From NCBI GenBank assembly GCA_004335835.1, contig RWJK01000858.1, positions 1 to 15,464 on the forward strand: DNA of 15,464 nucleotides. The letters run 5' to 3'. Shown in pieces: positions 1 to 14,240 of the stretch. How positions within the stretch are numbered: position 1 is the first letter of the stretch; each line of letters opens with the position of its first letter. A program made the translations under genes and the position numbers. The notes beneath the pieces are model-generated. The model was not told the origin of the DNA and made no database searches. It was given only the letters and a program-made list of their open reading frames with translations. The stretch comes from Scenedesmus sp. ARA3 (Eukaryota > Chlorophyta > Chlorophyceae > Sphaeropleales > Scenedesmaceae).

Positions 1-301
1 CAGCAGCAGCAGCAGCAGCAGCAGCAGGATAAGGGAGAGTGTGAGTGAACGGCCTCATGCTCCGCGGGGCTGGCACCCTCGCCGGGCGGCGGCTGGCGCC
101 TGCGGCAGCAGCAGCAGCAGGAGAAGGGAGAGTGTGAGTGAAGGGACTCGCGCTCCGCGGGGCTGGCGCCCTCGCCGGGCGGCGGCTGGCGCCTGCAGAG
201 CAGCAGCAGCAGCAGCAGGAGAAGGGAGGATGTGAGTGAAGGCCTCGCGCTCTGCGGGGCTGGGGCCCTCACCGGGCGGCGGCTGGCGGCTGGCGCCTGC
301 G

Positions 302-333
<32 letters not shown>

Positions 334-411
334 AGGGAGAGTGTGAGTGAATGCCTCATGCTAGGTGGGGCTGGAGTCCTGGCTGGGCAGCGGCTGGCGC
401 GTGAGAATGAA
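1..411. repeat. Four-unit minisatellite of about 93-111 bp with CAG runs; may be copies of the next CRNKL1 acceptor
   Basis: Units share the core gagtgtgagtgaa (ends near 49, 142, 240 and 351) followed by a GC-rich block ending ggctggcgcctgc and then a CAG run. Spacings are 93, 98 and 111 bp. The rightmost unit (352-411) is the most diverged. On the minus strand, three units read as a CTG-rich tract, then CCGCAG or CTGCAG, then GCGCCAGCCGCC, which is acceptor-like at 99, 192 and 296. In the phase left open by exon 14, the units starting at 99 and 192 encode RQPPPGEGASPAE followed by [HR]E. They could therefore be duplicated 5' ends of exon 15, as seen elsewhere in this gene. That reading is an inference. 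Confidence 0.7.
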
Positions 412-715
412 GCAGCAGGAGAAGTGTGGGGACGGAAGCGTTGAGAGGAAGGAAAGCCCAACAGATCCTGGCGCTACATGAAATACAGAGGGGTTTAGAT
501 GGAAGGAGCAGCGCTGCAATGACATGTGCAAGGGAAGCACGTGCATAGGTGTGCGGCTGAAGTGAATTGGCAACACGCCAAGCCCCCAAGGACATGACAT
601 CACCTGACCAGCACACGCGCATTTGCACCGAGCTAACAGCCAGTCATCACAGCCACGGTCCTTGCACACACTGCTGCTGCCAAGCAGTGACAGCACTGCA
701 CTCGTCGAGTTGCCA
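412..715. other. Intron 14 of CRNKL1, no further feature seen
   Basis: No stretch on the minus strand resembles the expected CRNKL1 C-terminus, and no plus-strand ORF has coding character. I read this as intron sequence downstream of exon 14. The remaining exons are presumably left of the window. Confidence 0.5.
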
Positions 716-720
716 CTCAC

Positions 721-787
721 TGCTGCGCCTCCTCGCCCTCCTGCTGCTCCTCCTCCTCCTCTGGCTGCGGCAGCGGCTCGGCTTCAA
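721..787 (-). repeat. Decoy copy of the exon 14 3' end with donor
   Basis: Near-identical to 864-930 (the acidic [21 protein letters not shown] end of exon 14), lying 143 bp downstream in transcript sense. The donor is kept (CAGCA, then GTGAGTGG) and looks at least as good as the real one. The 143-bp offset is not a multiple of three. Confidence 0.85.
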
Positions 788-863
788 AGTACACACATTG
801 CCAAACAGTGCAAGACAGCATGCACCAAGCATATGACCACCAACAATCTAACACAAAACTCAC

Positions 864-1029
864 TGCTGCGCCTCCTCGCCCTCCTGCTGCTCCTCCTCCT
901 CCTCTGGCTGCGGCAGCGGCTCGGCTTCAAACTTGGCCAGTGACAGCCACACCTTAACGTGCTTGGTGCGGTCCAGCAGACGCTCATACAGCAGCCGCGT
1001 GCGCTCGCGGTTGCCCTGCAGATAGTAAC

Positions 1030-1072
<43 letters not shown>

Positions 1073-4000
1073 TGAGGAGGTGCTTTGTCCGTCATATTCT
1101 GCTCGTACAGCAGCCGCGTGCGCTAACGGTTGCCCGGCGCAGAAAGGAGCGCAAAGGGACAAATACTTGCAAAACATGTGATGGGGCACGATCTGAGGAA
1201 TGGAGGATGCAGCAAAATCAGGATGTGCTTTCAAGGCCATGTGCAGCTCATCTGCAGCAGGTCATGCCGCATATGCACGCAGCGGTCGCAACAGGCCAAA
1301 ACGCCAGCGGCATTGATGCTCGCTCACCTCAGCAATCTCTAAGTCGATATAGGCCTTCCACAGCGCCTCACCAGATGTAGCACATGCATGAAACATGCAT
1401 GAGGTGCTGCATCAAACACGCCTCACCTGCGCGATCTCAAAGTCTATGTACGCCTTCCACAGCGCCTCGGGCATGTCCAGCACCGGCTGGCTGATGGCCA
1501 GCTCAAACAGTGCACCATACAAAACTGCATGCACTCCCTGACATGCTCGATTTCAAAGTCAACTAACGCACTTGACAGCGCCTCACCATGCCGTTTCCTG
1601 GAGTAAGCGCCATCTCAGAGGCAATATGCAGTACCAAAGTCACCCCTCTCAGTAGTAAGTCTCTCCTGGTCTCACCTGTGCAATCTCAAAGTCTATGTAG
1701 GCCTTCCACAGCGCCTCAGGCATGTCCAGCACCGGCTGGCTGATGGCCAGCTCAAACAGTGCACGCGCGCGCCCGGCTTCAGCCAGCGCCACCTCCAGCT
1801 CAGCGTACCTGCGGTTATAACAACGTGCAACAGTTATAACAACAGTTGGTTTATCAGTTGGTGGTGCGGAACCGATGGTAGGGCTGCCTCCGCTCCACCT
1901 CCAACTCTCTCCAACACCTGAGCCATCATGCACCGCAGCATACCTGCGGTTGATGCAGCTGTTCATGTTTGCTCAGGCACTAGTGGTCATGCTGTTGACG
2001 ATGGTAGACGATAGTTGATGACAGGGTGATGGTATGCGGCAGTTGGTGATGCAGCCATTAAATTTGCAGTATACAGGGCAGGAGCAGGCCGCCACAGCGC
2101 CTGTTGAACACCAGCTGTATCACCACATGGACAGGGCACTGCAGCAGCTGTGAGCTGCCAGCCTCAAGCATACAAACATGTAGGATGCGGGTGTGGCTGC
2201 CTCGTGCACCTTAATCCGCCTGTGCTGCTGCCGAGTCACTCACTTGAGCCATGCGCTGGCGTTGGCAGGGTTCCACTCCAGGTACTTCTCATACAGCGTG
2301 CGGCACCTGCAGCACAACAGAACAGATACAAGCATATGATGATGAAAAGCTGCAAGCAGCAGAAGAAACGTAGGTGAGTACAGGGTTCACATCAACAAGC
2401 AAACTTATCCCCAGTGCAGCTGGAAGTTTTCCGCAAGCAGCACCGCTGCACCCAATACAGCTCAACGCCTGACAGTCATACAATTTATATCTTGAACAAC
2501 CCAAGCCGCACTGCGGTCATTCTGAACCCTAAACCGCACCTGTCGATGTTGCCGAGCGTCATCTCCAGCTGAATGTACTCCTTGAACAACTTCCCTTTCG
2601 GGCAGCTGCCCAGCGCCAGCCCCAGGATCTTGCACACCAAAAACCTTTCAACCCTGAAACACACATGCCAAACCCTCAAACCCTAAACCCACCTGTAGAT
2701 GTTGCCGAGCGTAATCTCCAGCTGGATATATTCTTTGAACAGTTTCCCTTTTGGGCAGCTGCCCGAAACCAGCCCCAGGAACCCAAAAACCTTTCAACCC
2801 TCATCTCAAAGCCCTAAAACCTTGCACCGCACCTGTCGATGTTGACGAGCGTCATCTCCAGCTGTATATATTCTTCTTCTTTGAACAGCTTCCCTTTCGG
2901 GCAGCTGCCCAGCGCCAGCCCCAGGATCTTGCGCACCATAAACCTCAAGTTTTAAACACTTATCCCAAACCTAAGACCCTAAACCGCACCTGTCGATGTT
3001 GCCGAGCGTCGTCTCCAGCCGTATGTACTCCTTGAACAGCTTGCCCTTTGGGCAGGAGCCCAGCGCCAGCCCCAGGATGTTGCGCGCCCCAAACCTCAAA
3101 ATGCAAACACTTATTTCAAACCTAACACGATAAACCGCACCTGTCGATGTTGCCGAGCGTCATCTCTAGCTGGATATATTCTTTGAACAGCTTCCCATTC
3201 GGGCAGTTGCCCGAGACCAGCCCCAGGTCCTTGCGGACCCAAAACCTCTCAACCCGTAACACACATGTCAAACCCTCAAACCCTAAAAACCCACCTGTCG
3301 ATGTTGCCGAGCGTCATCTCCAGCTGGATATACTCCTTGAACAGCTTGCCCTTGGGGCAGGAGCCCAGCGCCAGCCCCAGGATCTTGCGCGCGGCAGGCA
3401 GCCGCTTCGCGCGCACCTCCAGCTTGGCAGCCAGCAGCCACAGCTTGGCAAAGGTGAATCTGGAGTGAGGCACCAGCTTCAGCGCGGTCCTGCAGTTGTA
3501 CAACAAAGCCGCAGCAAACGTGAGGCAACAGCAGGTGCACATGCTCCAGCTTGACGGCCAGCAGCCACAGCTTGGCAAAAGTGAAGCTGGAGTGGGGCAC
3601 CAGCTTCAGTGCGGTCCTGCAAGGAAGCAGGAGTATAGTAGCAGTTGCTTGTGCTGGAGTATGAGCTCAGCTGCAGGTTAGGAAGCGCGCAAGTACATGC
3701 ACCTCCAGCTTGGCGGCCAGCAGCCACAGCTTGGCAAAGGTGAAGCTGGAGTGGGGCACCAGCTTCAGCGCAGTCCTGTGTGTGCAAGCAAAGAAATGAA
3801 GCGCATATGTGTGTTGTGAAATTGTGACCAGGGCATGTGCCCTCAACTAAAGCTGGGCTGTGTAGGGCATGCAACGCCACCTTGAGCGCGGTCCTGCAAG
3901 TACAAACAGCCACAGCTTGGCAAAGGTGCGAGGGCAAGCACCTCCAGCTTGGCACAGCCACAACTTTGTGAAACTGAAGCTGGAGTGGCGCACCAGCTTC

Positions 4001-5689
4001 AGTGCGGTCCTGCGAGTGTATGTGGGTGGAGAGTGGAGGTGACAGCAGGTCGACATAGTACATAACGCAAATAGCCAGGCACAGTAGCAGCACATCCGGA
4101 TCCACAACTCAAATCCTGTGACCCACTAAAACGGCACCCCAGGGCATGCACAATCATTGAACTTCTCACCTGTACACCTCGCGCGCCTTGTCCATGTCCC
4201 CCGCATCCAGCTCCTCGAACAGCGCATACTTGATCCACAGGTAGATGTAGCGCTGCCAGAAGCGCTTCTCGTTGCCTGGCGGCAGGTTTGCCACTGCGCG
4301 CTCATACACCTGCGGTCGTTGTGCAAGAGCAGCACGGATGCGAGATAGCCGCTCAGCAAGCAGAAGAAACAAGGGCGGCAGGCGTAGCCGGCATGCATGT
4401 AATGCAACCTCGGCAATAACCCGTCAGATACACGTGCCAGCTTCTGCAATGCTACAGCCCTGACCAAACAGTGTGCACGCCAGCCCACCGAGCCAACTCC
4501 CACACATGACGCTCCCAGAAAACACTTAAGAAGCAACCCCAGCAGCAGTACCACCTGCTGCGCTGCAACACAGCACCAATGACCCGCTCGCAGCTGTGAT
4601 CAATGTTCAACCTCGGCAGTGCACCGCGCTTGCTGCGCGACGACACATCACAATGCACAACACCCTGCTGCCAGCCCTGCCATCAGCCGCACCTCGCGTA
4701 TGCGCTCGTGGTTGCCGGTGCTCTGCTCCAGCTTCACGTAGTCGAACCACGCGTGCTGCAACACAGCAACAAAGCGCTACACAACACCCTGCTGCAGCAA
4801 ACATCCATCAGGCGCACCTCTTGTACGCGCTCCGTGCTACCCTCCAACTTGCCAGCGTGCATGCAACGCAGCCCACAACGTCCAAAGTGAACGGTGCTGC
4901 ATTGCAGCCGTCTGCTACGCCACCGCAAAACATCAAGCAGCCATTCAAAGGCCTAACCAGCCGCACCTCGCGTATGCGCTCGTGCTTGCCGGTGCTCTCC
5001 TCCAGCTTCACGTAGTCAAAACAATATACATGCCTCATACTCCAAAGCCTCCAACAACACAAGTTTCTGCAATGCTGCACCCTAACGGAGCTTGCACGCC
5101 AGTCCAAAAGACAACCCCAAAGCACGCCGCCCCCAGCACACCCAACACAGCATGCAGGCGGCCACACAACAACTCACGCCACACAGCGGAAAGTCGCACC
5201 TCGCGTATGCGCTCTTGGTTGCCGGTGCTCTGCTCCAGCTTCACGTAGTCGAACCACGCGTGCTGCAACACAGCAACAAAGCGCTACACAACACCCTGCT
5301 GCAGCAAACATCCATCAGGCGCACCTCTTGTACGCGCTCCGTGCTACCCTACGCGCTCCAACTTGCCAGCGTGCATGCAACGCAGCCCACAACCTATAAA
5401 GTGAACGGTGCTGCATTGCAGCCGTGTGCTACGCCGCCGCAAAACATCAAGCAGCCATTCAAAGGCCTAACCAGCCGCACCTCTCGTATGCGCTCATGGT
5501 TGCCCGTGCTCTCCTCCAGCTTCACGTAGTCGAACCACGCGTCGTAGTTGAGCGGGTTGGCAGCGATCTCCTGCTCGTACGTGAAGCGCCGCTTGCTCAG
5601 CACCACGTCCTCGATGCCTTCCCTGCGGCACAAAGAGGCAAAAAGAGACAGTGCGGCACAAGGGGTTTGAACTGGAGGTCAAGCACATG

Positions 5690-5755
<66 letters not shown>

Positions 5756-8700
5756 CATCTATCTGAGACATGCATGCGTAGCGCTGCGCTGCGCGCGTGC
5801 AGCAGCAGTGCACAAGCCGGCATCCGCCCATTCCACCTGCTGCCGTGCTGCTGCTCGAAGGCGCAAAGCGCACCTGCTGCTGCCTGGGCTGTAAACAACA
5901 AAACAGCAAACCTGCTGCTGCCTGTTGTTTGAAGGCCACGAAGCGCACCCACTGCTGCCTGCTGTATCAAAAAGGACAAAGCGCACCTGCTGCCGTGCTG
6001 CTTCTCAAAGGCCACGAAGCGCGTGTACAGCTCCTGGGCAGCCGCCTTGGGCAGGTGGTCCAGCGCGTACTGCAGGCGCCACATCAGCAGCAGCGGCAGC
6101 AATGTTACACATACACAGGAAGGCGCAGCAGGGAGAGTGAGATGTGCAGCATAGATATATTTGCAAGTGCTGACAAGGCCTGCAACAGAGCACTGATGAT
6201 ACAACCGCAGAGACTGCTGATGATACAACCGCAGAGACTGCTGCAGGAATGCCGGTCTGCAGCCATTGCTGCTGTTGACAGCGCACAAAATATATATGAG
6301 TGCCCCTTGCCTGCTTTGCACCTGGTCAAACCCGGTCAAACCTGGTCAAACATCAGGTCAAACATAACAGCGCGCACCTGGTAGATGGCGCGTGCGCGCT
6401 CGTGCTCCTTTACCATCTCCTCAAACTCAGCAAAGCGCAGGAAGAACTCCTCCTGCAAGCACCACACAGCAGCAGCAGCTGCAACAGTCAACAAGCACAC
6501 GTTTGAAACACGGCACAAAACATGTGGGGATACCAGCACCGTTCACGCGGCAAAGCACAGCAAGAAGAACTCCTCCTGCAAGCACCACCACACAGCAGCA
6601 AGGTAAACATGGTGCAAAGCAGGTGGGAAGTCAAAGACATTCCACAGCTGACAGTCTGACGTGACTTGACACAGCTCTGCAGAAGCACGATTAAAGCATG
6701 TCAATCTCAGCTCTACATCCACAATATCTCGCTGGGAATTTTGAAGGCATTTCTCTCACCACATGGCAGTCCTCGCCCAGCGCCTCCATGGCCCGCTCGT
6801 AGCAGCCGCGCGCGCGCGCCACGTCGTTGTGCTGCAGCTCAAACTTGGCGTAGCGCACCCAGGCCTTCACGCTGGGCAGCACCTCGCAGTAGCGCTCAAA
6901 CACGGCGCGCGCGCGGTCCACCTCGTTATAACGCAGTTCAAACTGCAGGCAACAGACAGAGTCGAGGCAGGCAGGGTGCGAGAGGGGGTGTCATTCACGC
7001 TGGGCAGCACCTCGCAGTAGAGCTCAAACACGGTGCACGTGCGCGGTCCACCTCGTTATAATGCAGTCTAAATTGCAGGTGACAGCCAGGTACGTGCGAA
7101 GACGGGCAGAACACCCTGATAAGAGGATGCTGAGCAGTGGCTCGCAATACCGCACGCAATTTCAAAGCATTTCTGCGCCACAGCTCTCACATAGATGTGT
7201 GCTTTGCATGCAGCATACGACTAATGCTCACCTTGATGTAGGCCATCCATGCTGCGTGGTCTGGCTCGAAGGCCATCCAGCGGTCAAAGATGAGCCGGGC
7301 CTTGGCTGTCTGTTGACCATCTCTCATTTGCATCTTTATGATCACTTAAATGTACGCCATCCATGGAGCAGATACAGCTCATGAGGTGGTGATCACCAGC
7401 TGAACAACATTCTGGTTTGGCAGTAACTAACATGCGTGCACACCCCATCACTGCTTACCTTGATGTATGCCATCCACGCGGCGTGGTCCAACTCGAAAGC
7501 CATCCAGCGGTCAAAGATGAGCCGCGCCTTGGCTGTCTGTTTGACCATCTCTCATTTGCACCTCATGCTCACCTAAATGTACGCCATCCATGGAGCAGAA
7601 TCAGCTCGGCAGGTGGACCAATGACCTGGCTTGACAAGTGACTGATGAGCTGTTAGTTTATTTTAAGCTCACCTTGATGTAGGCCATCAAAGCAGCGTGG
7701 TCTGGCTCGAAGGCCATCCAGCGGTCAAAGATGAGCCGCGCCTTGGCTGTCTCCTTGACCATCTCCTCCTGACAATCTCCTCCGAATGTATGCACTTGAA
7801 CCAAAGATGCTTTCTCATCTGCAACCCCAAGCTCACCTTGTTACCAGCCAGCCACGCAGCACAATGAAGCTCGCCGCATTGCAGTGCAGCGGTGCTGCGC
7901 CTGACTGACTTGCGAGTCAAAGTGGCGCTGCCGGCCTCACCTTGATGTACGCCATCATTGAGCAGACTTGGCTCAGCAGGTGGACCAATGACCTGGCTTG
8001 ACAAGCTACTGATGTGCTGTTAGTTTAATTAAGCTTACCTTGATGTAGGCCATCCATGCTGCGTGGTCTGGCTCGAAGGCCATCCAGCGGTCAAAGATGA
8101 GGCGGGCCTTGGCTGTCTCCTTGACCATCTCTTCCATGTGGATGTACTTGTACCACAGCTGGTCGATGCGCGGCAGCAGTGACACAGCCCTGCAGGAAAA
8201 TCGAAAAGTGTAGCAGCAGTGGCAGGTCAGTCTATGGGCATGGCAGAAGACATGATGTGCATGTGCTGTAGGGTACTTGTACCACAGCTGGTCGATGCGC
8301 GGCAGCAGCGAGACAGCCCTGCAAGTGAAGTAAGGGGTGAAGCAGCAGTGGCAGGTTCGTGTATGCCAGGCATGGCAGGCGACAAGATGTGCATGTGCTG
8401 TGGGGTACTTGTACCACAGCTGGTCAATGCGTGGCAGCAGCGACACAGCCCTGCGGTGGAAATGACGGTATGACAGGTTAGTGGTTGTGGGATATGGCAG
8501 AAGACCTGATGTGCATGGGCTGCAGTGCTCATGCACCACAGCTGGTCAATGTGCGGCAGCAGCGACACAGCCCTGAGCAAAACACAAGCAAGCGCGCCAT
8601 GAGATGGCAACAGTGGCAGGTCAGTGTGTGTGAGCACATGATAAAAATAGATGTGCTTGTGTGCTGTTAAGCTTAGCGTGCATGCGCAGTCTGATGGCTT

Positions 8701-11209
8701 GCCAAGCTGGTGTAGGTCGCCACAAACATATCGCCTGCTGCTGTGGTATGTTTGTTGTAGTAATTGACCTTGCATTCCGAAGCACGGGCACCGTGTCAAC
8801 CGGTCTGTTCACCGCGTTGACAGGAATACGAAGAAGCTGGGCATGAGGCATGGGGACTGGCATCAGAAGTGTTGGCTGCTATCCTGCAAGCAGCTGACGA
8901 AAGCCTTGCCAGGCAAGAGTCCCTTGCGGGCTACATCAGAGCAGGGGCAGCTGGCGTGCCTCACCTATCCCACACATTGCGTGCGTGGTTGACAAAGCGG
9001 TGCCGCATCTCCATCTCGGCATACTGCAAGCAGACAAACAACAGCCAAGCACAAAGGTTCTCTGTTAACTTGCGCCGCGGCCTTGCCAGGGGAGCACATG
9101 TGTTGGGAGGCAGCAGTGTCGGCGGCATACGCATGCTGCACACGCTATGCCTGGCTGACCGCACGGCTGCCAGCTGCTCATCTGGAACCAGAACACTCTG
9201 CAATGGCTGCAAAGACGGCGCAAAAAAACTTAAAGAACTTCGCAACAGGTCACCTTGAGCCAGGCGGTGGTGTGGGTGTAGTCCACATGCGCACAGCATG
9301 CATTCTGTTGCGAGCACTGTGCAACAACCCTGACGCAGAGCTGCGCATCGTCCCCCCAACACACACTGGTTGCATGCCCTTGCATGTACTGTCCCTGTCA
9401 ACACGAACCCACCCTGAGCCAGAAGTTGGTGTTGGTGCTGTCCACGTCTATGGCCCCGCTCCCACATGCGCACTGCACCACACCACAAAAGCAGCACACC
9501 ATCTGCCCTCCCGCCCCCACCCACCTTGAGCCAGAAGTTGGTGTTGGTGTAGTCCACGTCTATGGCGCGCTCCCACACGCTGCGCGCACGCCTGAAGTCC
9601 TTCTGGCTCTCCTCCCAGTGCGCATACTGGAAGGAAAAACGATACACCAAGGAAAGCACAGGAGCACACAAGGAAGGTCAGAGATCAGACAGCAGGCGTT
9701 TGGCTGCAGTGTGAGTGTGCTGCAGCGCACAAAGAGAAGAGAGGAATCTGCTTTCCTGCTGCATGCCCATCATGTGCAAAGGAGCGTTGAGGACATACTT
9801 GACACTCAATGCTGCTGCTGCTACTGTTGCTGTTGCCGCTGCTGCTGCCGCTGCTGTTGGCACTCACCTTGATCCATATGCTGTGGTTCCAGCGCCCCAC
9901 ACGCCGCGCTGTGTCCTCAAACTCCTTGCGCTTGCGCAGCCTGGGGTTGGCAGCAGAAGCAGCAGCAGTGCAACAGACCAGCAGCTTCAGCATCACCGAC
10001 AGAGAGATCACTGCTGCTGCTGCTGTGATGTCAGCAATGTTGGACCTGCAGACAACTGCTCGGGTGCAGCAGCTGTGCACAGCCGATGCATAAACACGCC
10101 CATATGTGTAGGTGCAATGAGGCTGTAGCACAGCTGAACACTCCCGCTGAGATAACGTGTTGTGAGCTCACTCTGCATAACAAACATCAGCAGGACAGAA
10201 GTGCGCACCCAGGCCCTGCTGCTGCCACAGCGCATGCTGATGCGCAGTATGCAACAGCATGCCTTGCTGCTGCTGCTACTGCTGCTGCAACTACTGCTCC
10301 ACCGATGGCATGAGTCCAGCAGGGTCCATCAAGCTTGCATTCAACCACCAGCCTGCATGCATGCACCCGCTGCTGCATGCATGCGCCTAAACATCTCCGC
10401 TGTTTCGCCAGCTCTGGTCCCACCACAGCTTGTGTGCGACTGCACATCCCGAGCACTGCAAACCTCACACCAGACATCAGATAGAACCACAGGGGCAGCT
10501 GCTTCCTGCAAGCCATCTGGAGTCACACTCACCTGTACTCTGCCAGCTCCTGCAGGTCTTTCATGATGGTCGTAGGCGCCTTGAAGGCATCCTCCAGCTG
10601 CCAATACTCCTAACACACCAGCGCCCAACTCTGCTTCCATCAAAGCTTGAAGCTTCACACCCCAGCCACTGCTACTCCCAAACCCCATACTAAAGCAAAC
10701 ACATGTTTGCCTTCCTGCAACCCGCCTGGCCTCACTCCCTCATACAGACACAAACCCTCTTGCTCACCTGTACTCTGCGAGCTCCTGCGGGTCTGTGATG
10801 ATGGTCTTAGGCGCTTTGAAGCCATCGTCCAGCCACCAGTGCTGCCAACACACCAGCGCCCAACTCTGCTTCCATCACAGCTTGAAGCTTCACACCCCAG
10901 CCACTGCTGCTCCCAAATACCCTACTAATGCAAACACATGTTTGCTTTCCTGCAATCACCTAGCCCCACTCACTCTCTCTCACACATACACACAAACCCT
11001 CTTGCTCACCTGTACTCTGCCAGCTCCTGCGGGTCTGTGATGATGGTCTTAGGCGCCTTGAAGTCATCTTCAAGCTGGATCTCCTTGGCCTCCCGCAGGA
11101 TCTGTTCTGCAGTGATCTGCCGCTGCGCTGGCTGCTTGTTCTTGACCTTCATGGCTTTAGGCAGGCGCACGCTGCCATCGGCGCTGCCGCCGACATTTGG
11201 CGCACTCAT
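864..11209 (-). CDS. CRNKL1: Crooked-neck-like 1 (Clf1/Syf3) pre-mRNA splicing factor, exons 1-14, C-terminus outside window
   Basis: HAT-repeat scaffold of the Prp19-associated part of the spliceosome, nuclear, needed for spliceosome activation (family knowledge). Exons (residues): 1 11010-11209 (1-66); 2 9868-9940 (67-91); 3 9525-9626 (92-125); 4 8965-9023 (126-144); 5 8039-8189 (145-195); 6 6760-6942 (196-256); 7 6378-6452 (257-281); 8 5987-6069 (282-308); 9 5481-5622 (309-356); 10 4170-4309 (357-402); 11 3295-3489 (403-467); 12 2244-2306 (468-488); 13 1676-1808 (489-533); 14 864-1015 (534-583). Every junction is GT-AG and every phase matches, giving 1751 nt without a stop. Diagnostic stretches are the N-terminal [104 protein letters not shown] and [17 protein letters not shown] signatures (W..Y, then [YF]ERA) recur throughout. 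Exon 14 ends in a Glu/Gln-rich run. The exon 14 donor leaves phase 2, so the gene continues to the left. Exon edges are inferred without transcripts. Confidence 0.95.
1031..1070. repeat. CAG/CTG microsatellite just upstream of the exon 14 acceptor
   Basis: About 13 uninterrupted CAG units. On the coding (minus) strand this is a CTG tract ending about 15 nt before the exon 14 acceptor, in the place of a polypyrimidine tract. Confidence 0.95.
1103..1148 (-). repeat. Decayed copy of the exon 14 5' end
   Basis: Matches 988-1020 (tacagcagccgcgtgcgct, then cggttgccc) on the far side of the CAG tract. The AG of the acceptor is lost (CCG instead of CAG before GGCAAC), so this copy should not be a splice acceptor. 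Confidence 0.75.
1326..1593 (-). repeat. Three decoy copies of the exon 13 3' end
   Basis: The best copy (1427-1511) repeats the [26 protein letters not shown] end of exon 13 with a good donor (GCGCAG, then GTGAGG). A shorter copy starts at 1328 with GT kept. A strongly decayed copy (about 1538-1593) has lost its donor. Stops between the true donor at 1676 and the copies would truncate any read-through. Confidence 0.85.
1938..1958 (-). repeat. Decoy copy of the exon 13 acceptor
   Basis: Repeats the junction at 1802-1820: minus-strand AACCGCAG followed by GTATGC, versus GTACGC in the real exon. The copy would start at 1943, 135 nt (45 codons) upstream of the real start at 1808. The frame between them is open, so its use would add 45 residues. 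The rest of intron 12 (1967-2243) shows nothing else. Confidence 0.7.
2537..3294 (-). repeat. Tandem array of exon 11 3' ends: five decoys next to the real one
   Basis: Units begin with cacctgtcgatgttg or a close variant at 2537, 2690, 2830, 2987, 3138 and 3292 (the last is the real exon end). Spacing is 153, 140, 157, 151 and 154 bp. Each unit has up to about 100 bp matching the [26 protein letters not shown] end of exon 11, a retained donor (GACAG or TACAG, then GTG), and an AC-rich intronic spacer with CCCTAAAC-like motifs. All lie downstream of exon 11 in transcript sense. Confidence 0.95.
3540..4016 (-). repeat. Tandem array of exon 11 5' ends: four decoy acceptors
   Basis: Copies of the exon 11 start ([25 protein letters not shown], real acceptor at 3490-3491) lie upstream, with predicted starts at 3616, 3775, 3893 and 4009; spacings are 127, 159, 118 and 116 bp. 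All four keep AG before GGAC. The 3893 copy is shortened. Most copies stop matching just after CTGGAGGTGC, the codons of K-L-E-V, suggesting a shared unit boundary inside the exon. Confidence 0.92.
4691..5478 (-). repeat. Array of exon 9 3' ends: five decoys, with a nested duplication of about 508 bp
   Basis: Decoy exon ends fall at 4693, 4817, 4967, 5200 and 5325; the real one is 5481. Each has GAG followed by GTGCG or a near variant, so the donor is kept. Four carry the [25 protein letters not shown] end; those at 4817 and 5325 are diverged (acctcttgtacgcgctcc). About 4747-4990 and 5256-5500 are nearly identical over the whole stretch including intron, so a 508-bp block was duplicated after the smaller units arose. 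The right-hand block extends into the real exon 9. Upstream, 4310-4690 shows no repeats. Confidence 0.93.
5690..5764. repeat. TCTA tetranucleotide microsatellite
   Basis: About 18 TCTA units with one TCCA interruption near 5753, inside intron 8 of CRNKL1. No coding or regulatory role is visible. Confidence 0.97.
5835..5986 (-). repeat. Short-period array (37-38 bp) of exon 8 donors
   Basis: Candidate GT dinucleotides recur at 5835-5836, 5872-5873, 5910-5911, 5947-5948 and 5985-5986 (real). Alternate units, 75 bp apart, are the better match to the [16 protein letters not shown] end of exon 8. The frame from exon 8 stays open through all of them, so donors ending at 5912 and 5837 would add exactly 25 and 50 codons. 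The 5912 donor (CAG then GTTTGC) is weak; the 5837 one (CAG then GTGGAA) is moderate. Confidence 0.85.
6193..6363. repeat. Two short direct repeats in intron 7
   Basis: A 24-bp unit (ctgatgatacaaccgcagag plus actg) occurs twice head-to-tail at 6193-6240. GGTCAAAC occurs four times at 6324, 6334, 6344 and 6356. Neither resembles exon sequence, unlike the arrays in the other introns. Confidence 0.85.
6551..6590 (-). repeat. Decoy copy of the exon 7 acceptor
   Basis: Repeats 6431-6467 (gaagaactcctcctgcaagc) 123 bp upstream in transcript sense, with acceptor TTGCAG intact before GAGGAG. The offset is in frame, but a TGA follows after about ten codons, so use of this site would truncate the protein. 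Confidence 0.85.
6990..7079 (-). repeat. Decoy copy of the exon 6 5' end, acceptor broken
   Basis: Nearly identical to 6863-6946 ([24 protein letters not shown] start of exon 6), offset about 128 bp. The acceptor has changed from TGCAG to TGCAA before the exon start, so this copy should be inert. Confidence 0.88.
7229..8038 (-). repeat. Array of exon 5 3' ends: about seven decoy donors
   Basis: Donor-like ends lie near 7232, 7345, 7459, 7573, 7673, 7837 and 7941; the real end is 8039. Spacing among the first four is about 113-114 bp. Three long copies (ending at 7232, 7459 and 7673) repeat about 90 bp coding for [20 protein letters not shown] and keep AAG before GTAAG or GTGAG. The others are short or diverged. 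A larger block (7571-7770 compared with 7940-8130) has also been duplicated, including intron between the units. Confidence 0.92.
8262..8576 (-). repeat. Array of exon 5 5' ends: three decoy acceptors, two in frame
   Basis: Copies of the [21 protein letters not shown] start of exon 5 give predicted starts at 8318, 8450 and 8572; the real start is 8189. Spacing is 129, 132 and 122 bp. All keep AG before GGCTGTG. The first two offsets are multiples of three and the frame is open throughout, so they would add 43 or 87 residues, each containing another copy of this HAT segment. Confidence 0.93.
8577..8964. other. Rest of CRNKL1 intron 4, no feature seen
   Basis: No copy of exon 4 or 5 and no repeat was found here. 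ORFs in this stretch lack coding character. Confidence 0.5.
9252..9475 (-). repeat. Two decoy copies of the exon 3 3' end
   Basis: The copy ending at 9413 repeats about 60 bp of the [20 protein letters not shown] end of exon 3 (real end 9525). The copy ending at 9254 is more diverged. A GT donor is kept in both (GTGGGT and GTGACC). Offsets are 112 and 271 bp, not multiples of three. Confidence 0.85.
9811..9860. repeat. Imperfect CTG-rich tract in CRNKL1 intron 2
   Basis: Interrupted CTG/TTG/CCG repeats lie just inside the exon 2 donor (exon end 9868). No exon copies were seen in this intron, the shortest of the gene at 241 bp. Confidence 0.8.
9941..10530. other. 3' half of CRNKL1 intron 1
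   Basis: GCA/CTG-rich intron sequence with a small TGCATGCA-type palindromic patch near 10354-10385. No exon copy or coding ORF can be supported. Confidence 0.5.
10531..11009 (-). repeat. About 240-bp tandem units carrying the exon 1 donor (two decoys)
   Basis: The exon 1 end ([19 protein letters not shown]) plus donor and intron is repeated with ends at 10768 and 10533; the real end is 11010, giving spacings of 242 and 235 bp. Exonic homology covers about 70 bp. The intronic spacers (for example 10621-10720 and 10856-10960) are also about 90% alike. Both decoy donors (TACAG then GTGAG) are intact. A TGA right after the real donor closes the frame of any read-through. Confidence 0.94.
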
Positions 11210-12089
11210 CGTGCTGCTGCTGTTGTTGGGCCTGCCGCGGTGGCTGGTGCCGGTAGGCAGATGCTATATTGCTGTTCAGGTGTGGTACGGATCAGGCGAG
11301 CCCTGCACTGCCAGAGCGGCGCCGTTGCTGTTGCAAGCGTACTGCCCTGCTGATGCTGTGCTAGCCAGCTCGCACAAGCTGTGCTGCAGCTGCCCTACTG
11401 TGAAAGCCTCAGTGCTCCTGTTTCGTGAGTAGAGCAGCTGGTGTTGGTCGTAGCTAGCCCCCATGAAGCAGGGCTGCTGCTGCCCCCATAGGGCTTGCTG
11501 CTGCTGCAGCAGCTACTGGTGGCTTGACAAGCCGATACCAAACAGGTGACGCGTAAAACGTTCAGTATTGTTTGCTAGATTAAAAGCAAAGGATTGTCGA
11601 TCATACGCAGCTGGTGGTTCGCTTCTGCAGTAAGACAACTCGCCAGACACAGGGACTTAGCGCCTCTCACGCAGTCTACAGCACTAAAAGGATAACAGTG
11701 TTGCGGCTTCGCCTTGCACGACATATGCAACCATCAACCCTACCGTTGTCACCCCTGCAACTTGTTATCACCGAAGCTCTCACATCAGCGTCCGCTTAGC
11801 GTCGATCAGGCAACACTGAAGTGGACCATTTTGATAAAAGCGTTTTGGTCGCCTGTAGGCAGCATTACAAAGTCGGGCAGCCGCACACTGCCCACCTGCA
11901 CTGTCCTGCTGCTCTGGCCTGAGCATACCTGACTGCCATCCTGCTTTGGATCGCGACAGTGACCTGCAACGAACCCACATCATACCACATATCCCGGAAC
12001 TCAACTAAACAAAGAACACACCCCACCTGTGAACTTGCTTAGGTTGCTACAGACGTAGCAGCTACTGCTGCCTGGCTGCAGCAGCAGCA
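11210..12089. promoter_or_regulatory. Shared upstream region between two divergent genes
   Basis: This 880-bp gap separates the ATG of the CRNKL1 gene (minus) from the proposed ATG of the Sel1-like gene (plus), so it should hold both 5' UTRs and both promoters. The 11210-11520 part is rich in CTG/CAG, like the UTRs and introns nearby. The 11530-11860 part is more AT-rich (for example around 11560-11600 and 11828-11850) and is the likeliest core promoter zone. I see no convincing TATA box at a defined distance and no ORF with coding character; the short ORFs here look random. Confidence 0.5.
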
Positions 12090-13957
12090 ATGCTGGACTG
12101 GTTCCTGCTGTCCTTTGGGGGCGCAGCCGTATACGCTGCCAGCAAGTGGTTCAAAGCACGTGCAGCAGCCTCCAAAAGCAGCAAGCAGCAGCCGCAGCAA
12201 CGCACTGGCAAGTGAGTTTTAGATGTATATTCAGCCATGTCAGGCTGAGGCCGTAACATGTCTCCTGCAAGTGCACCAACTGGCATGCAGGCACTGCGCC
12301 TGCTGCTTGCAGGACAGCTGTGGACATGCCTGTCGTGCCATACCAGGTGCCTGCATGCCCATCTGTTTACTATAAGCAGCTCTGGGCCCTGTGGGAGGTC
12401 AGAGGGCTGCTTCAAGCTTCAAGCATCTGCAGAACTACCATGTGTGCATGGCTTACCCCTGGCCTAGGTAGATTCCCCAGCAGCAGCTTGCAGCTTGCAG
12501 CAAACTCGACTGATGCTGCAGCAACTCGCTGTGCATGCTGCCTGCAGGTATGGCCAGCCGCTGAGGCTTGTGGTGGCGCAGTGCGAAGCCAGATGGTTCC
12601 TGCAAGAGCTGCAGGTGAGCAGCCACGACCTGCCACTTTGTCAAACCAACCTGTTGTTGGTGGTGCCTTGGCAACAACCATTGAAAAAACGTAACATTGG
12701 GCTGCAATGCTGAGCGTGTGAGTTCCATGGGTGACAAAGGCTACAGGCCTGCAGCAGCGGCCTGACAGCCAGCACAGGGGAGCTGCCACCCGTTGCGGCA
12801 GATGCTAGCAAGCCTGCTAGCCAGCCTGCCTGAGGCAGAATCTTCTCACCATGCTCTGACGCTGCTTCGCTGCTGCTGCTGCTGCTGCTGCCTGCAGCTG
12901 GCCATGGCAGGTGATGCGGAGGCTATGGTGAGGGTGTCTCACATGCTGATGGCTGGCTATGGCACACAGCAGGACCACACAGCAGCAGCGCGCTGGATAC
13001 GGCAAGCATGGTGAGCTTGTTACTTTGTGCTCAATTGGCGGCGTTGACGAGCAGTGGCTGACACAGCAGCAGCAGCAGCAGCAGGAAGCTGTTGGCAAGT
13101 GAACCCTGGCATACAGATTCCTGCGAGCAAGCATGGTGCTGGCACAGTGGATTCCTGGTGATTTGTGTCGTCTACAAGCACTGGTGACAAAGCATCGTGT
13201 GCTCGACACTGCTGCTGGTAACATCTATGCTCTTATCATACCATTGTATATAGGGCCATTCAAAACTTCAAGGAGCCGGGGCAGCTGCATGGCATGCTGG
13301 ACATGCTCCGCTGCTGCTGCGACACCTGGGCTGCTGCTAATAACATATGTGCTTCTGTTACACCAATGTCTGCAGGGCCATCCAGAACTTCAAGGAGCCC
13401 GGGCAGCTGCATGGCATGCTGGACATGCTCCGCTGCTGCTGCGATGCCTGGGCCGCTGCTAATAACGTATGTGCTTCTGTTATAACAATGTCTGTTATCG
13501 CAACGTCTGCAGGGCCATCCAAAACTTCAAGGAGCCTGGGCAGCTGCATGACATGCTGGACGTGCGTGACTCAGCAGTACCGGCACTCAACGATGCAGCA
13601 GCAAAGCCGCCCAGTCAGGCAGCAGGCGAATCAGCAGTAGCAGCAGCAGCAGCAGGCAGTGAGGATGGTAGTGGTCGCCGCAGGCGTGGCGGGGGCAGGC
13701 AGCAAGGGCCACACAGCAGCAGCAGTGCTGGACCTTCAGCAGAAGGCCGCGGCGGTAGTGCAGCAGCAGGTGGCTTTGGCATGCAGGCGGCAGCCAGCGG
13801 CAGCAGCAGCAGCAGCAGCAGCTGCCATCCTGAAGATAGGGATGGTGTGCAGCAGCTATTGCGTGATGTGACAGCGGCCTCCCAGCCATGTACTGGCGCT
13901 CAGCAGCAGCAGCAGCAAAGAGCTGCGGAGGCCACCCAGCAGTCAGCTCAGCAGCGC

Positions 13958-13996
<39 letters not shown>

Positions 13997-14158
13997 TGCC
14001 AGCAGTCTGGTGTTGGGGCCGCTAGGCACCTATGCAAGACGCTGCTGCGGCAGCAGCGGCAGCGACAGCTCAAAGCAACAGCAGCCTCTGCTGTGAGGGC
14101 GTCAGTACAGCAGCAGCAGCAGCAACAAGCAGGTTCAGCAGCGCTGTCGCTAACCTAG
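12090..14158 (+). CDS. Small Sel1-like-repeat protein with hydrophobic N-terminus and Q/A/S-rich tail, four exons
   Basis: Proposed exons are 12090-12211, 12548-12614, 12898-13010 and 13513-14158; all introns are GT-AG, phases fit, and the product is 315 aa. Residues about 3-22 (DWFLLSFGGAAVYAASKWF) could be a membrane anchor or targeting signal, followed by a Lys/Gln/Ser linker. Residues 64-100 (AMAGDAEAM, then AGYGTQQD, then AARWIRQA) match the pattern of one Sel1-like repeat, a TPR-like helical hairpin used in protein contacts. From about residue 125 on, the tail is low complexity: Ser runs, an RRRRGGG patch and polyglutamine at about 252-262. The gene is divergent from CRNKL1. Intron 3 carries two extra copies of the exon 4 acceptor. 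An exon between 12615 and 12897 was considered, but its frame hits a stop. I do not recognise an orthologue, and function is unknown. The first two exons are the least certain. Confidence 0.6.
12868..12890 (+). repeat. CTG tract at the acceptor of Sel1-like gene exon 3
   Basis: Seven to eight CTG units run directly into CTGCAG at the proposed exon 3 start (12898), serving as the pyrimidine-rich tract, as for CRNKL1 exon 14. Confidence 0.75.
13253..13512 (+). repeat. Two decoy copies of the last-exon acceptor of the Sel1-like gene
   Basis: The junction ending in AG followed by GGCCATCCAAAACTTCAAGG (real exon start 13513) is preceded by copies at 13253 and 13374; spacings are 121 and 139 bp. 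The 13374 copy has an intact TCTGCAG; the 13253 copy has only TATATAG. Homology runs from the intron (gctgctaataac, then tatgtgcttctgtta) through the MLD codons. Use of either copy would shift the frame or reach a stop. Confidence 0.92.
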
Positions 14159-14240
14159 TAGCCTGACAATTAGCAATGTACAGCATGTACAAGCAACATA
14201 TGTGGGGGTCATGAGAGCCCTAGCTAGGCATCATGTGTGA

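Follow-up and report, generated by a model that had tools for sequence, protein, structure and literature searches.

Introner elements are repeated, splice-site-bearing sequences that enlarge intron content and occur dispersed. New introns can also be made by tandem duplication, as in ATP2A1 in vertebrates and in potato RdRp (PMC4974935; review PMC3443670). As those sources describe them, both events are direct tandem duplications of exonic sequence with splice signals that create a new intron, the potato case copying an existing intron-exon structure. In tandem exon duplication and mutually exclusive exons (see PMC9013439), exon sequence is duplicated in the adjacent intron. In tandem arrays under concerted evolution, repeats are more alike than the spacers between them.

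The window, the whole 15,464-nt stretch of DNA that we analysed, carries the crooked neck gene of Tetradesmus obliquus, whose introns contain arrays of copied exon ends. As in the cases described for ATP2A1 and potato RdRp, exonic sequence with splice signals is duplicated directly, but here the copies lie within existing introns, which grow. Unlike those cases as described, there are up to ten copies per exon end (locus L055), half of the sampled exons are affected and there are signs of renewal. The junction that the copies span is an existing donor or acceptor; it is not an AGGT inside the exon. As in tandem exon duplication, exon sequence lies in the adjacent intron, but none of 119 copies from three gene sets comprises a whole exon with both splice sites; the copies are halves, some are frameshifted, and the frame is not kept, 23 of 25 interior gaps across all 119 not being multiples of three. 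Tandem gene or whole-exon duplication is ruled out by the same count. As in concerted arrays, repeats are mostly more alike than spacers (exceeding linked neutral sequence on average, with 4 of 26 pairs contrary or equal), but each array has one functional member and its unit is an exon fragment. Like introner elements, the repeats add intron content bearing splice sites; unlike them, they appear local, since DNA of exons 5-6, in one query, matched its own contig alone (4/4 matches). We found no report of such exon-end arrays in Tetradesmus or Scenedesmus in the open-licence literature.

Half-exon copies beside crooked neck exons

Crooked neck (CRNKL1/Clf1/Syf3) encodes a HAT-repeat splicing factor and lies on the minus strand of the window, where we modelled 14 exons. 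Their joined 583 aa are identical over the full length (100% over 100%) to P0002 (T. obliquus OEZ85_005900), on which Pfam HAT/Syf1/CRNKL1 families were matched; the exon model therefore agrees with an independent annotation. All introns are GT-AG, with compatible phases across the 14 exons. The visible part spans 864..11209 (-), and the gene runs on beyond the contig end. The last visible donor is that of exon 14 (CAGCA/GTGAGT), and exon 15, which starts with RQPPPGEGASPAERE in P0002, lies past the contig end.

11209-11010 (-): exon 1 (E1)
9940-9868 (-): E2
9626-9525 (-): E3
9023-8965 (-): E4
8189-8039 (-): E5
6942-6760 (-): E6
6452-6378 (-): E7
6069-5987 (-): E8
5622-5481 (-): E9
4309-4170 (-): E10
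3489-3295 (-): E11
2306-2244 (-): E12
1808-1676 (-): E13
1015-864 (-): E14

At a Smith-Waterman score of at least 36 (each flank was dinucleotide-shuffled 60 times, and the best shuffle reached no more than 35), we found 28 copies in introns adjoining their own exon, 27 of which reach an exon end and one of which is an inner fragment. E1, E3 and E13 have two copies each, E6 and E8 one each, and E9 three; E5 has three upstream and three downstream, E14 one on each side, and E11 four upstream, including the inner fragment, and five downstream. At this score E2, E4, E7, E10 and E12 have none. Below it lie one 26-nt acceptor-side copy of E7, two extra copies of E8 and short donor pieces of E5. The copies are listed below, with fractions giving identities to the exon.

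10768..10833 (-): E1 donor-side copy 1, 61/66, GTGAGC kept
10533..10600 (-): E1 donor-side copy 2, 61/68, GTGAGT kept
9415..9478 (-): E3 donor-side copy 1, 57/62
9254..9286 (-): E3 donor-side copy 2, 29/33
8532..8572 (-): E5 acceptor-side copy, outermost, 37/41
8399..8450 (-): E5 acceptor-side copy, middle, 48/52
8273..8318 (-): E5 acceptor-side copy, nearest, 44/46
7673..7769 (-): E5 donor-side copy, 91/97
7459..7552 (-): E5 donor-side copy, 83/94
7232..7333 (-): E5 donor-side copy, 98/102
6994..7067 (-): E6 acceptor-side copy, 68/72, AG lost (AA)
6550..6575 (-): E7 short acceptor-side copy, score 32, under the main threshold
5915-5946 and 5952-5984 (-): two weaker E8 donor-side copies, under the main threshold
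5837..5889 (-): E8 donor-side copy, score at least 36
5200..5261 (-): E9 donor-side copy d1, 58/62
4967..5023 (-): E9 donor-side copy d2, 51/57
4693..4754 (-): E9 donor-side copy d3, score at least 36
3938..4009 (-): E11 acceptor-side copy, outermost, 62/72
3907-3928 (-): E11 inner fragment, beside the outermost acceptor-side copy
3699..3775 (-): E11 acceptor-side copy, 73/77
3544..3616 (-): E11 acceptor-side copy, 67/73
3141..3235 (-): E11 donor-side copy d1, 83/94
2990..3087 (-): E11 donor-side copy d2, counterpart an annotated exon in P0001
2833..2934 (-): E11 donor-side copy d3, 88/96
2693..2780 (-): E11 donor-side copy d4, 74/88
2540..2633 (-): E11 donor-side copy d5, counterpart an annotated exon in P0001
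1427..1515 (-): E13 donor-side copy d1, 85/89
1332..1370 (-): E13 donor-side copy d2, local alignment stopping 4 nt before the junction
1101..1134 (-): E14 acceptor-side copy, AG lost (CG)
721..788 (-): E14 donor-side copy, 68/68, followed by GTGAGT

The half-exon copies are thus confirmed. The exons with copies are those named in the first-pass annotation (1, 3, 5, 6, 7, 8, 9, 11, 13 and 14, with E7 entering through its short copy only), and the exons said to have none (2, 4, 10 and 12) have none at a score of at least 36. Its count of more than 30 copies is reached when the weak copies and four copies of the exon-15 start are added to the 28, and its rule that donor copies lie downstream and acceptor copies upstream holds for all 27 end-type copies. 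When the window was compared with itself (repeats of at least 40 nt and no more than 2.5 kb apart, after removal of low-complexity sequence), 40 repeat pairs emerged, the equivalent of the self-dotplot proposed earlier, and junction-spanning direct homology was present. Within the crooked neck introns, each pair includes a junction copy or a duplicate of one, some rows being judged by eye; the remaining pairs belong to the exon-15 array and a neighbouring gene. Likeness between HAT repeats of different exons was discarded as a cause, as the copies are ~79-100% identical in DNA and match their own exon. An assembly error behind the arrays is unlikely because two E11 units have counterparts in the OEZ86 proteome (P0001).

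Two further arrays lie in the window.

1..424 (-): exon-15-start array with four acceptor-side copies, one of them weak, at 367-403, 244-292, 147-196 and 59-106
13253-13297 and 13375-13419 (+): acceptor-side copies in the neighbour gene, upstream of what is presumably an exon with its start near 13512

The contig end falls within the exon-15-start array, which has a period of 93-111 bp. The proteins of P0001 and P0002 contain a second, partly different exon-15-start block, and P0003 has one block. The neighbouring gene (12040-14160, plus strand) is rich in glutamine and serine, and 168 aa joined from it had no Pfam match. Intron 8 contains a TCTA tetranucleotide run of ~19 units (5690-5764), several CAG runs occur in the window (for example, 1031-1070), and at gathering score Rfam gave no structured-RNA match for the window.

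Spread, polarity and splice sites of the copies

Our sample from one assembly comprised the 14 crooked neck exons and loci of two unrelated families, Cpn60_TCP1 (59 matches, 30 loci cut, 28 usable after splice-site modelling) and DEAD (36 matches, 30 cut, 24 usable), with score cuts of 36 in the crooked neck scan and 38 and 42 in two later scans. Cpn60_TCP1 loci L009 and L038 were left out as not modelled, and DEAD loci L045, L053, L054, L059, L062 and L067 because of stops or a match spanning an intron. Copies accompany 33 of the 66 exons (L031 through an upstream match alone), which are neither random nor fully independent, since the best family score decided which loci were taken and some of them overlap within one gene. 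The high density of copies, previously thought unusual for one gene, is therefore not unusual within this genome, and we infer that exon-end copies occur in many T. obliquus genes. Copies accompany 1 of 5 exons shorter than 90 nt, 27 of 44 measuring 90-220 nt, and 5 of 17 longer than 220 nt. The largest arrays sampled adjoin DEAD-box exons, with ten (L055, contig C856) and seven (L063, contig C275) acceptor-side copies. Genes differ: in the Cpn60_TCP1 genes on contigs C1260, C837 and C1552 the usable loci are copy-free except for the odd upstream match of L031, whereas other members of the family have many copies. Expression level or intron age may be a factor.

The 119 copies comprise 66 donor-type copies downstream of their exon, 46 acceptor-type copies upstream, one donor-type copy upstream (L031) and six inner fragments, so that, of the 113 end-type copies, 112 are placed as tandem duplication predicts. 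Among 132 flanks, 47 have a same-strand match scoring at least 42 and none an inverted one. Because of this single orientation and polarity, we favour tandem duplication, and the junction-spanning direct duplication first proposed is well borne out. Where spacers still align, intron sequence belongs to the duplicated unit. Consecutive spacers are recognisably homologous in 21 of 59 pairs and not in the other 38. Homology between the terminal flank and a spacer is seen in 12 of 46 arrays; the other 34 lack it, and tandem origin is therefore not demonstrated in those. For the E14 copy, interspersed insertion was our first reading and was provisionally dropped, as the gapped flank score exceeded shuffles (z 4.8) and the far flanks align by eye; a later homology test, contrary to that z score, classed the same pair as not homologous.

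Of the copies across the three gene sets that reach within 4 nt of the junction, 58 of the 63 donor-type ones keep GT and 37 of the 41 acceptor-type ones keep AG; decay at 3.7% per base predicts ~58 and ~38. A looser rule with the DEAD set left out gives 45/47 and 22/27. The dinucleotides are retained no better than neighbouring exon bases. Compared with intron bases from +6 on, the contrast suggested in the first-pass annotation, their excess is steep, with the caveat that on the intron side either partner can change, and at GT only the copy. Retention of GT and AG thus equals the copies' own decay rate, and function is not needed to explain it. Donor-copy identity is 0.87 at +3, 0.65 at +4, 0.87 at +5 and 0.54 at +6 (the G of GT being +1), a profile that mirrors the donor consensus and is also expected if one partner was always a real donor. 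Three copies had been named as having lost their splice site: the E6 and E14 acceptor losses stand, but the E13 loss does not, as a blast alignment of d2 (1370-1323) passes through the junction and E13 is absent among the losses found. The idea that copies are complete small exons was set aside, as no consistent opposite AG or GT was seen by eye at their inner edges.

Divergence of copies, exons and spacers

Copies differ from their exons at 4.0, 3.4 and 15.5% of first, second and third codon positions (90, 75 and 343 differences in 112 copies, with the L031 upstream copy and six inner fragments excluded and alignment edges trimmed). First and second positions thus average ~3.7%, and the third-to-first/second ratio is 4.2 (95% interval 3.25-5.30, bootstrap over 47 exon ends) for exon-copy pairs and 3.9 (2.7-5.3) for copy-copy pairs. 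Untrimmed differences in crooked neck alone number 25, 30 and 98. Of the end-type copies, 14 of 112 are frameshifted, and in these the third-position ratio is 3.07. The copies, then, look coding in their substitutions and non-coding in their indels. CpG mutation was rejected as the source of the third-position excess, the ratio staying at 3.79 without CpG sites; at exon G/C bases only it is 2.72, and with both filters 2.18, and part of the excess is therefore change to A/T in the exon lineage.

On average, spacers have diverged further than exon parts. In 11 copy-copy pairs with alignable spacers the exon part differs by 11.8% and the spacer by 18.7%, and gaps per 100 nt number ~1.4 for the exon part (12 in ~834 nt, summed over rows) and 7.8 for the spacer; in 15 exon-copy pairs the values are 9.1% and 15.8%. 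The spacer is equally or more alike in 4 of these 26 pairs, most clearly between exon 9 and d2 (exon part 51/57, spacer 207/212), a young duplication in which the exon part is the more changed. Around donor junctions in the three gene sets, identity drops from an exonic ~0.9 to 0.49-0.54 at +6 to +8 and 0.29-0.40 at +13 to +16, in an ungapped profile whose fall is deepened by indels.

Simulated copy-and-decay gave ratios of 1.97 (exon-copy) and 1.48 (copy-copy), and simulated conversion with selection on the exon gave 1.95 and 1.41. A simple process of duplication followed by decay does not fit. In our reading, many substitutions arose while the sequence was exon, and copies were later renewed from the exon. 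Because 4.2 and 3.9 exceed the simulated ~2.0 and 1.4-1.5, the observed ratios need an extra factor, such as exchange among diverged exon haplotypes. Simulations of such exchange gave 28-251 with the settings tried; the model has free parameters, and this therefore shows only sufficiency. A second haplotype contig was rejected as the source of exon variants, one query of the assembly having found none.

Some copies preserve earlier exon states. At one residue of exon 11 this genome has AGA (R), whereas all three acceptor-side copies have AGC (S), and P0001, P0003 and P0004 have S; the copies have thus retained the older state. P0001, from the T. obliquus proteome OEZ86, includes the counterparts of E11 copies d2 and d5 as annotated in-frame exons. 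When two T. obliquus proteomes are compared, 3 of 82 aa differ in these two copies and 2 of 583 in the window exons (Fisher p 0.015), a small sample in which the copies were selected by a gene predictor. Annotators should be warned that such copies mislead, two already standing as exons in one T. obliquus proteome.

Proposed renewal of exon-end copies and intron growth

We propose, with a probability of roughly 0.55, that the arrays are tandem exon-end duplicates repeatedly renewed by exchange with an exon held constant by selection. A short direct tandem duplication with one break in the exon and the other in the adjacent intron would copy the exon end with its splice site. The message would stay intact only if the spliced copy is the one facing the rest of the exon, so spare donors would lie downstream and spare acceptors upstream, which is the pattern seen. 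Selection would hold the exon end constant, and copies would remain homologous to it and able to exchange with it and with each other, presumably by unequal crossing-over or conversion. Such exchange would renew copies with exon sequence, expand arrays and lengthen introns while spacers drift apart, leaving copies as mostly non-functional snapshots of past exon-end versions. As the exon would renew the copies and selection preserve the exon, the homology driving the array would never decay. Traces of exchange are ambiguous. E9 copies d1 and d3 match at 89 of 89 nt ahead of their exon part and at 61 of 62 inside it, and the sequence downstream is unrelated; this could reflect unequal exchange within the exon-derived stretch, although other histories are possible. 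Flank identity is confined to one side in 66 of 137 pairs, in part explicable as an end effect, and the site pairs that show four-gamete incompatibility, 25 of 70, are fewer than random assignment gives (0.55-0.73) and may reflect homoplasy.

Tandem duplication and subsequent neutral decay, involving neither renewal nor function, would account for the direct orientation, the polarity, the frameshifting interior gaps (23/25), the close agreement of GT and AG retention with 3.7% per site, and those few cases (exon 9 and d2, for instance) in which the spacers are as alike as the exon parts. By simple arithmetic, however, 3.7% predicts spacers ~90% identical, whereas no homology is recognisable in 38 of 59 consecutive pairs, and the codon-position ratios stand above the simulated ~2 and 1.5; this explanation is improbable and already disfavoured. 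Low divergence at first and second positions could instead mean that the copies function, as alternative half-exons or as decoy splice sites under selection in regulated or unproductive splicing. Conservation of GT, +3 and +5 alongside variable +4 and +6, as in real donors, and the two E11 copies annotated as in-frame exons would agree with such a role. Yet nearly all interior gaps break the frame, the frameshifted copies still show a ratio of 3.07, which present coding constraint would not lead one to expect, the E11 copies differ more than exons between proteomes, and copy number is erratic from one exon end to the next, with 33 of 66 exons having none. We consider selected function unlikely.

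Alternatively, duplications could be targeted at exon ends through a splice-site-linked mechanism, such as breaks associated with transcription or splicing, instead of arising at random and being retained. All tandem pairs of at least 40 nt in the crooked neck introns that passed the low-complexity filter involve junction copies or duplicates of these (judged partly by eye), and of the random 80-250 nt segments that would be permissible, only 21-37% would include a junction. Intron-only duplications may nevertheless have decayed out of sight, exon-derived repeats being visible for longer because one copy is constrained, and no breakpoint was caught in the act. We regard directed duplication, too, as a poor candidate, and prefer renewal of exon-end duplicates by exchange with the exon.

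Intron growth, which the first-pass annotation had proposed, is supported by length: the mean for crooked neck introns is 812 nt where copies are present (n=9) and 323 nt where they are absent (n=4; one-sided Mann-Whitney p 0.003), and length rises with copy number (Spearman 0.83, n=13). T. obliquus is reported to have a mean intron of 462 bp, the longest of five green algae, the others having 230-302 (PMC5966456), and the arrays are probably a main cause of such length. If renewal by exchange is correct, it would provide a concrete mutational engine for intron lengthening that is tied to selection on exons. More broadly, and with somewhat less than even confidence, we suggest that purifying selection anchors the arrays, so that exon ends genome-wide generate splice-site copies, drive intron growth and force routine splice choice. 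Were this true, the spliceosome of this alga would routinely have to pick among several near-identical donors or acceptors. Introns with arrays, which hold several near-identical junction copies and one presumed correct answer, constitute a natural experiment in splice-site choice.
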